Source: Erysipelotrichaceae bacterium
Lineage (GTDB): Bacteria; Bacillota_I; Bacilli_A; Erysipelotrichales; Erysipelotrichaceae
Reading direction: 5' to 3'
NCBI GenBank assembly: GCA_017539105.1
Contig: JAFYHQ010000045.1
Coordinates: 1 to 54,319, forward strand
DNA: 54,319 nucleotides
Shown here: piece by piece, positions 37,886 to 39,254 of the stretch
Numbering within the stretch: the stretch's first letter is position 1
Layout: each line of letters starts with the position of its first letter
Notes under the pieces: model-generated
What the model was told of the DNA's origin: nothing
What the model saw: only the letters and a program-made list of their open reading frames with translations
Database searches by the model: none
Position numbers and translations under genes: made by a program

Positions 37886-38611
37886 TTAACCCATCAGGGA
37901 AGTCAGAAGGCTTAAGAGTTCCGTGCCATCCGATGCCTGAGTGGAAGTCTGCGTGTTCGTCGTGCCTGTCAGCAATGTACCTAACATGCTGGTGAGATCC
38001 AGCGAGTTGTCGGTCTTCTTTTTCTTGTTGCTGGTGGTTGTGGTTGTCGGAACACCTAACAGAGAACCTAACAGATTGGTTGCCGTATTTGCCGTGCTCT
38101 GTGTGCCGCCTAAGAGGCCCATGATATCGGAAAGATCGATGCCATCTGCCAGATTGATGCCGCTGGAAGCAGTTGTCGTAGCAGCCGGTTTTTTCTTCTT
38201 GGCAGCCGTATTGGTTGCTGTGCCTAAGCTGTTCAGCAAAGCCGGAGCGATATTGCTCAGAACGGAATTGACCTGGTTGGAAGTCAGACCGGTCTGATTT
38301 GCCAGATTGGACAGAACGGTACCCTGGTCCTGACCGAGGATGTGGGCGATGATCTTTGCGCCATCATCTTCATCGGCTTTCGCAACCTGTTCCTGAACGG
38401 TAGCCGTGCTGGTGTGCTGGCCTAATGCGCTTAACAGGGACTGAGCGCCAGTCTTCTTGGAAGCGTTCTTGGTCATGTAGCTGATCAGAAGAGGGATCGC
38501 CATCATCAGAAGCTTCGAAGTCGTCTTGGAATTGACACCTGTCTTTTTAGAAACTGAGTTTACGGAATCATTGGTCGTAAGAGTTCCTAATAATAACTGT
38601 AATAAATTCAT
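37886..38611 (-). CDS. DUF937 family protein with Thr/Lys-rich linkers
   Basis: 241 residues. The N-terminal 130 residues match DUF937: VNSKTTSKLLMMAIPLLISY, SALGQHTS, DDGAKIIAHILGQ and VLSNIAPALLNSL. The rest holds low-complexity linkers (AAKKKKPAATTTASS, TTTTTSNKKKKTD) between short repeated helices of the type DLSDIMGLLGG and DLTSMLGTLLTG. DUF937 proteins resemble YidB; function is unclear. AAGGAGG precedes the ATG at 38611. Monocistronic. Confidence 0.85.
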   Translation of the reverse strand: MNLLQLLLGTLTTNDSVNSVSKKTGVNSKTTSKLLMMAIPLLISYMTKNASKKTGAQSLLSALGQHTSTATVQEQVAKADEDDGAKIIAHILGQDQGTVLSNLANQTGLTSNQVNSVLSNIAPALLNSLGTATNTAAKKKKPAATTTASSGINLADGIDLSDIMGLLGGTQSTANTATNLLGSLLGVPTTTTTSNKKKKTDNSLDLTSMLGTLLTGTTNTQTSTQASDGTELLSLLTSLMG

Positions 38612-38742: not shown

Positions 38743-39183
38743 TTACAGGATCACTTCCGTGCCGTCGCTCTTGACGATTACGAAACGGTAATTCAGGCCA
38801 TATTTTGCGATCAGGGAAGAAATGACGACCATCGGTGCTGCGCCAACCATCAAAGCAAGCGTTCCGACTGCGGCTCCCGTCGTTAACGGAACAGCGATGA
38901 CCTGACGGTCATAATTGTCACGGACGATGAACTTGCTGGCACTGCCTTCTTCGATCAGTTCCTTGATCTTTTCCGCGATCGTATCCGGCGTTCTTTCCTC
39001 GTTGCTGCTGAAGAAATCGCTGAATCCTTTGAATGTCGCAGAAGCGGACTTCTTGCGGTTCTCCAGAATGATGATCGCATCAAGGACATCGCCATCGGAT
39101 TCCAGCAATGCGGATTTCGCTTCCTCGTAAGTGCACTGTGTTCTTTCGATCACCTGATCGACTTCTTGGATACTAAAATTCAT
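38743..39183 (-). CDS. UBA-like/DUF4342 protein under CIRCE (HrcA) control
   Basis: 146 residues from ATG 39183, set by AGGAGG 7 bases upstream; an in-frame ATG at 39204 falls inside the CIRCE element. Residues 1-40 form a UBA/TS-N-like three-helix domain (VDQVIERTQCTYEEAKSALL, DGDVLDAIIILE). The C-terminal half matches DUF4342: a beta segment (ASKFIVRDNYDRQVIAVPLT), then a Gly/Ala hydrophobic helix (GAAVGTLALMVGAAPMVVIS) that may touch the membrane. The function is unknown. Its promoter is the most consensus-like in the window and is overlaid by CIRCE, the site of the heat-shock repressor HrcA, so it is expected to be made together with chaperones. Confidence 0.8.
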   Translation of the reverse strand: MNFSIQEVDQVIERTQCTYEEAKSALLESDGDVLDAIIILENRKKSASATFKGFSDFFSSNEERTPDTIAEKIKELIEEGSASKFIVRDNYDRQVIAVPLTTGAAVGTLALMVGAAPMVVISSLIAKYGLNYRFVIVKSDGTEVIL

Positions 39184-39197
39184 ATAAGATACCTCCT

Positions 39198-39224
39198 TTA
39201 GCACTCATAAATTGTGACTGCTAA
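39198..39224. promoter_or_regulatory. CIRCE element (HrcA operator)
   Basis: TTAGCACTC (39198-39206), 9-base spacer, GACTGCTAA (39216-39224). The consensus is TTAGCACTC-N9-GAGTGCTAA, so 17 of 18 arm positions match. The half nearer the gene is perfect when read on the minus strand, and the ribosome site follows directly. Confidence 0.88.
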
Positions 39225-39225
39225 A

Positions 39226-39254
39226 AATATAAGATAAAACAAGTGAAATGTCAA
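39226..39254 (-). promoter_or_regulatory. Consensus promoter of the UBA/DUF4342 gene
   Basis: Minus strand: -35 TTGACA (39254-39249), 17-bp spacer, -10 TATATT (39231-39226). The start site would fall within the CIRCE element. Confidence 0.8.

Follow-up and report, generated by a model that had tools for sequence, protein, structure and literature searches.

The 54,319-nucleotide contig JAFYHQ010000045.1 of an Erysipelotrichaceae bacterium, analysed here over its whole length (the window), carries on its minus strand a small gene for a UBA-like/DUF4342 protein, which stands directly behind a CIRCE (controlling inverted repeat of chaperone expression) element, the predicted operator of the repressor HrcA. 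The best explanation of this arrangement is that the gene very probably belongs, as a true member, to the class I heat-shock regulon governed by HrcA. HrcA control, proposed in a preliminary description of the stretch, has good support from sequence comparison: hrcA is present, 15 of 20 orthologues keep the site, and every CIRCE examined precedes chaperone genes or DUF4342. The kind of regulation is a known one; what is new, judging by these comparisons, is the regulon member.

A CIRCE element at the start of the DUF4342 gene

The inverted repeat TTAGCACTC-N9-GACTGCTAA at 39198-39224 agrees with CIRCE at 17 of 18 arm positions. With up to three mismatches allowed, the window contains no other match, and none arose in 100 dinucleotide-preserving shuffles, bearing out its earlier description as near-perfect. 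Its one mismatch falls within the limit of two stated for functional CIRCE sites in the accessible part of the source (PMC5138195). Read along the minus strand the order is TTGACA, 17 nt, TATATT, one base, the CIRCE element, AGGAGG, ATG and a stop at 38743, with the following features:

39249..39254, minus strand: -35 hexamer TTGACA, 17-nt spacer to the -10 hexamer
39226..39231, minus strand: -10 hexamer TATATT, one base upstream of the CIRCE element
39198..39224: CIRCE element (predicted HrcA operator), gene-strand arms TTAGCAGTC / GAGTGCTAA, one mismatch
39192..39197, minus strand: Shine-Dalgarno AGGAGG, touching the CIRCE element, as in the orthologues with a site
39181..39183, minus strand: likely ATG start, at the same position in 18/18 Erysipelotrichaceae-type loci
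38743..39183, minus strand: UBA-like/DUF4342 gene, 146 aa, PF14242 match, single copy in the genome
39046..39183, minus strand: UBA-like three-helix domain, residues 1-46, by structural comparison
38770..39000, minus strand: DUF4342 domain, PF14242 match

The TTGACA-17-TATATT promoter-like sequence matches at 11 of 12 positions and is the best of its kind in the promoter scan, in which such sites are not rarer than chance (3 observed, 2.5 expected). As first described, the operator overlies the predicted start region of the promoter, beginning 1 bp past the -10-like hexamer. The GTG start at 39204 given in the open reading frame list falls inside the operator and the ATG at 39183 has its own Shine-Dalgarno sequence, so the latter, giving 146 residues, is the likely start.

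CIRCE targets in the source genome and its relatives

A whole-genome scan of the source genome (2.09 Mb in 48 contigs, about 89% complete) found one hrcA (E 9.8e-41), one DUF4342 gene and, allowing up to three mismatches, eight CIRCE-like sites; a reversed control pattern gave none. Two sites with two mismatches each stand ahead of hrcA-grpE-dnaK-dnaJ (grpE is named by place and N-terminus only), and one with three mismatches follows dnaJ, ahead of a Clp-type AAA gene that we take, by its place and N-terminus, to be clpB; the remainder lie at groES-groEL (one), htpG (one), hsp20 genes (two) and DUF4342 (one). Among the products of the CIRCE-linked genes Pfam identifies HSP90, AAA with a Clp-type lid, Cpn10, Cpn60, HSP20 (two), HrcA, HSP70 and DnaJ. 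The preliminary description took HrcA normally to control groESL and dnaK, and both are indeed CIRCE-linked, but this view is too narrow here, as clpB, htpG and two hsp20 genes are linked too.

All 18 related genomes likewise carry CIRCE sites, five to ten in each, against three places in total, in two genomes, for the control pattern. We detected hrcA in 17 of them, and the one miss, G597, nevertheless has six CIRCE sites. In ten genomes the sites listed were examined (75 sites in 63 regions, with 7 of 8 sites in the last genome) and their targets named by similarity to the source genome's own genes; in the other eight, CIRCE sites were read only at DUF4342. Every one of the 75 lies upstream of a chaperone gene or operon or of DUF4342 (groES 10, hrcA 20, clpB 10, htpG 9, two hsp20 types 10 each, DUF4342 6). 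The DUF4342 gene carries a site in six of these ten genomes; the orthologues of the remaining four belong to those without one. The CIRCE target set of this clade is therefore unusually clean, and the DUF4342 protein, because it shares the chaperones' switch within this set, is a strong candidate for a missing proteostasis component.

The sequence of the operator is class-specific: the left arm TTAGCAGTC occurs at 11/14 DUF4342 sites and 7/9 htpG sites, and the left arm TTAGCACTC at 10/10 groES sites. Because TTAGCAGTC is common to so many DUF4342 and htpG sites, the single mismatch at the DUF4342 gene is mostly a conserved feature and not decay. The groES sites (ten, in eight genomes) all have the right arm GAGTGCTAT and enclose a TTGACT or TTGACA hexamer. 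At hrcA two sites lie 41-47 bp apart, start to start, in 10/10 genomes, the distal ones carrying TTGACA (source-genome contig C19 15439-15506; L108, L116, L123, L128, L133, L140, L147, L151, L157 and L164). The htpG site of the source genome (L007 1786-1812, contig C1) is in a divergent intergenic region, and the genes facing it we read as ybeY-dgkA-cdd-era-recO. As DUF4342 adjoins recO in Clostridia, a junction of this kind may lie close to where the gene acquired its CIRCE.

This organisation resembles the HrcA/CIRCE regulon of groESL and hrcA-grpE-dnaK-dnaJ in Firmicutes in operator sequence, spacing, promoter position, the presence of hrcA and the chaperone co-targets, but the target here is a UBA-like/DUF4342 protein, which is no known chaperone, protease or regulator. 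In the accessible parts of the published work, HrcA/CIRCE targets are clpB, dnaK, lon and dnaJ in Mycoplasma gallisepticum (PMC4245973) and, more generally, chaperones and the Lon protease, with a few others in Lactobacillus plantarum, for example a gene of unknown function and an integrase (PMC4245973, PMC3842655, PMC5138195, PMC3616900). DUF4342 is not named in any of the 5.39 million papers searched, most subscription journals being outside the search, and literature listings for Erysipelotrichaceae or ftsH with HrcA/CIRCE show no paper on such a target.

We infer HrcA binding, repression and heat induction at the DUF4342 gene as follows. In unstressed cells HrcA on the CIRCE element, between the -10 box and the Shine-Dalgarno sequence, would block the start of transcription, and this repression through a start-site operator is the best-supported step of the mechanism. 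On heat or protein-folding stress HrcA would lose activity and the DUF4342 protein would be made together with GroESL, DnaK-DnaJ-GrpE, the ClpB-type protein, HtpG and the two Hsp20 proteins. Such derepression follows from established HrcA biology; GroE keeps HrcA active, according to the accessible part of one source (PMC3842655).

Conservation of the operator

The carriers of a DUF4342 gene with CIRCE are rumen and gut Erysipelotrichaceae. A contig search that used five short-form proteins as queries returned 27 loci, of which 18 are in Erysipelotrichaceae-type metagenome-assembled genomes (MAGs), one of which is titled only 'Firmicutes', and nine in Clostridia. CIRCE at up to three mismatches and within about 45 bp of the ATG is present in 13 of the 18, with one mismatch in 12; scanning upstream of the gene revealed none in L031, L032, L035 and L041 and a six-mismatch remnant in L044. 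None of the nine Clostridia loci has CIRCE within 200 bp of the DUF4342 gene. A search of 272 family genomes at E 1e-10 found 39 with a match, comprising 20 short forms, 13 divergent forms (genus g31) and six long forms. The short forms, 18 in the window's genus (window included) and two in genus g4, are the 18 loci of the contig search, the window and one more. The site that the preliminary description led one to look for upstream of orthologues is present in 15 of 20, at one mismatch in 14 of these and at three in the other, and is absent from five.

On the protein tree the presence or absence of CIRCE needs four state changes, compatible with a single gain near the base of the short forms together with loss in L032, in L041 and in the L031/L035 pair; L044 is basal, and its degenerate site could reflect either erosion or a primitive condition. 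The element is kept across proteins about 50-60% identical, with the geometry of operator, promoter-like sequence and Shine-Dalgarno sequence preserved. Outside the short form the DUF4342 loci scanned have no CIRCE, except via ftsH in two loci. With five of 20 orthologues also lacking the site, HrcA control would accordingly be a trait of lineages and not of the whole DUF4342 family.

The divergent DUF4342 genes of genus g31 (L188, L189, L190) carry instead, at the promoter, the palindrome TTGACC-N3-GGTCAA. G1009, G1012 and G1043 have two exact copies each, G1030 and the source genome none; both copies are at the DUF4342 gene in G1009 and G1012, and one of the two in G1043, where the second precedes a small gene whose product appears to be a stress membrane protein of the GlsB/YeaQ type. 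These g31 genes may be under a different repressor.

The protein and its possible role

The DUF4342 domain of the preliminary description was confirmed by PF14242, which scores 47.7 bits (gathering cut-off 25) over residues 62-138. Its UBA-like domain is favoured by structural comparison but reaches no curated profile cut-off. Residues 1-46 of the predicted structure form a compact three-helix UBA fold whose closest counterparts are the EF-Ts N-domain and the UBA of the nascent polypeptide-associated complex (NAC). The best curated profile is the NAC model TIGR00264 (E 2.7e-5, 24.5 of the 80 bits needed, UBA part only), the elongation factor Ts model TIGR00116 gives 12.8 against 104.05 bits over residues 2-43 only, and Foldseek found no match at E 0.001 or better. 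A profile of the orthologue alignment (A3) finds archaeal NAC 1tr8 at E 0.0062, and 12 of 37 residues are identical to the N-terminus of the same genome's EF-Ts, whose true gene is located elsewhere. The protein thus resembles archaeal/eukaryotic NAC alpha in UBA fold and sequence, but the UBA part alone matches and is N-terminal here, C-terminal in NAC; unlike EF-Ts, it is without the EF-Ts core domains.

Residues 94-126, a stretch of 33, contain no D, E, K or R and have a Pro in the second half. The hydropathy maximum (KD-19) is 2.09, and the structure model is uncertain in this stretch, its confidence being low at residues 102-115; the one long-form relative measured (KD-19 2.97) looks transmembrane. 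As in Clostridia members of Pfam DUF4342, a UBA-like N-terminus precedes the DUF4342 domain, but the short form stands alone behind a CIRCE of its own, with neither recO nor a response regulator next to it, and its hydrophobic stretch is rich in Gly and Ala, not aromatic. The C-terminal hydrophobic stretch may insert in membranes, and together with the EF-Ts/NAC-like UBA it makes a role with nascent chains, ribosomes or membranes plausible.

The Clostridia relatives provide a second setting. In two related MAGs from differently named projects (L049/L050) a perfect CIRCE at 2092-2118 overlaps TATATT, 22 bp ahead of the ATG of ftsH (in L049 FtsH_ext, AAA, AAA lid and peptidase M41 by Pfam), and DUF4342 is the next gene, 30 bp downstream. 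Here DUF4342 would be HrcA-controlled via the ftsH operon, a second link to HrcA. These are two of the nine Clostridia loci of the contig search, and the arrangement is rare: 30 Clostridia loci and 60 further Clostridia stretches, the next matches by score among those listed, hold neither a CIRCE at up to four mismatches nor an ftsH match. The gene adjoins recO in 30/30 loci and 32/60 further stretches, with neither recO nor an OmpR-type response regulator in 15/60. In L052/L053 an Era-type GTPase (KH domain) precedes recO and a class II tRNA synthetase, presumably glycyl-, follows the DUF4342 gene. Of 391 genomes sampled in the class to which the L049 genome belongs, 99 have DUF4342 above the family cut-off. 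An OmpR-type response regulator directly follows long-form DUF4342 in 8/10 own-family loci (by eye) and 13/60 Clostridia stretches (L015, L019-L025; L232, L234, L237 and ten others), which suggests an envelope-stress setting for the long forms.

Because the chaperone-type switch is shared and a similar link occurs in a Clostridia lineage, the DUF4342 protein probably belongs to the protein-repair response of bacteria, as a part not yet described. Its most likely role, offered tentatively, is that of a membrane-proximal proteostasis factor: the hydrophobic stretch would associate with the membrane or with exposed hydrophobic segments, and the UBA would dock a partner, EF-Tu, the ribosome, or FtsH or the chaperone machinery. 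The EF-Ts/NAC resemblance favours the translation side among these partners, and the ftsH operon the quality-control side. The HrcA link gives a testable handle on DUF4342, and the UBA suggests concrete partners to look for.

The translation side can be taken further, in a possible but rather doubtful reading in which, under heat shock, the UBA binds EF-Tu or the ribosome and nascent chain, while the hydrophobic part is no membrane anchor but forms an internal core for chain binding or dimerisation. This would agree with the closest folds, the 1tr8 match, the identities with the genome's own EF-Ts and the recO, Era-type GTPase and tRNA synthetase neighbours in Clostridia. However, there is no EF-Ts core or NAC domain, both profiles and Foldseek fall short, UBA folds bind many partners, and the long-form relative looks transmembrane. 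Unlikely, in our view, is an adaptor at the membrane through which damaged proteins, membrane-bound or exported, reach FtsH or ClpB/DnaK. The CIRCE-ftsH-DUF4342 arrangement of L049/L050 and regulon partners that include a disaggregase type, Hsp70, Hsp90 and small Hsps speak for it, but ftsH adjoins the gene in 2/9 Clostridia loci and 0/90 further stretches, and gene neighbourhood is no proof of contact. It is quite improbable that a real CIRCE was incidentally captured in one lineage by a protein whose housekeeping is independent of heat induction: five orthologues live without the site and many of the Clostridia relatives have recO as a neighbour, which is a housekeeping setting, but one gain and three losses suffice on the tree, the site and its geometry are preserved as the proteins diverge, and L049/L050 show a second lineage linked to HrcA.

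The proposed membrane-proximal role has a more specific form, speculative and unlikely as a whole, in which the protein is an undescribed kind of heat-shock protein, an EF-Ts/NAC-type UBA fused to a membrane-seeking hairpin, induced through HrcA and tethering stressed translation machinery or nascent membrane proteins to FtsH quality control. If true, NAC would have a functional counterpart in some Firmicutes, acting at the membrane.

Downstream in the window, 131 bp from the DUF4342 gene, lies a DUF937 gene (37886-38611, minus strand; PF06078, E 1.9e-22). It has no CIRCE of its own in the window scan at up to three mismatches, and the 131-bp gap contains weak promoter-like matches.
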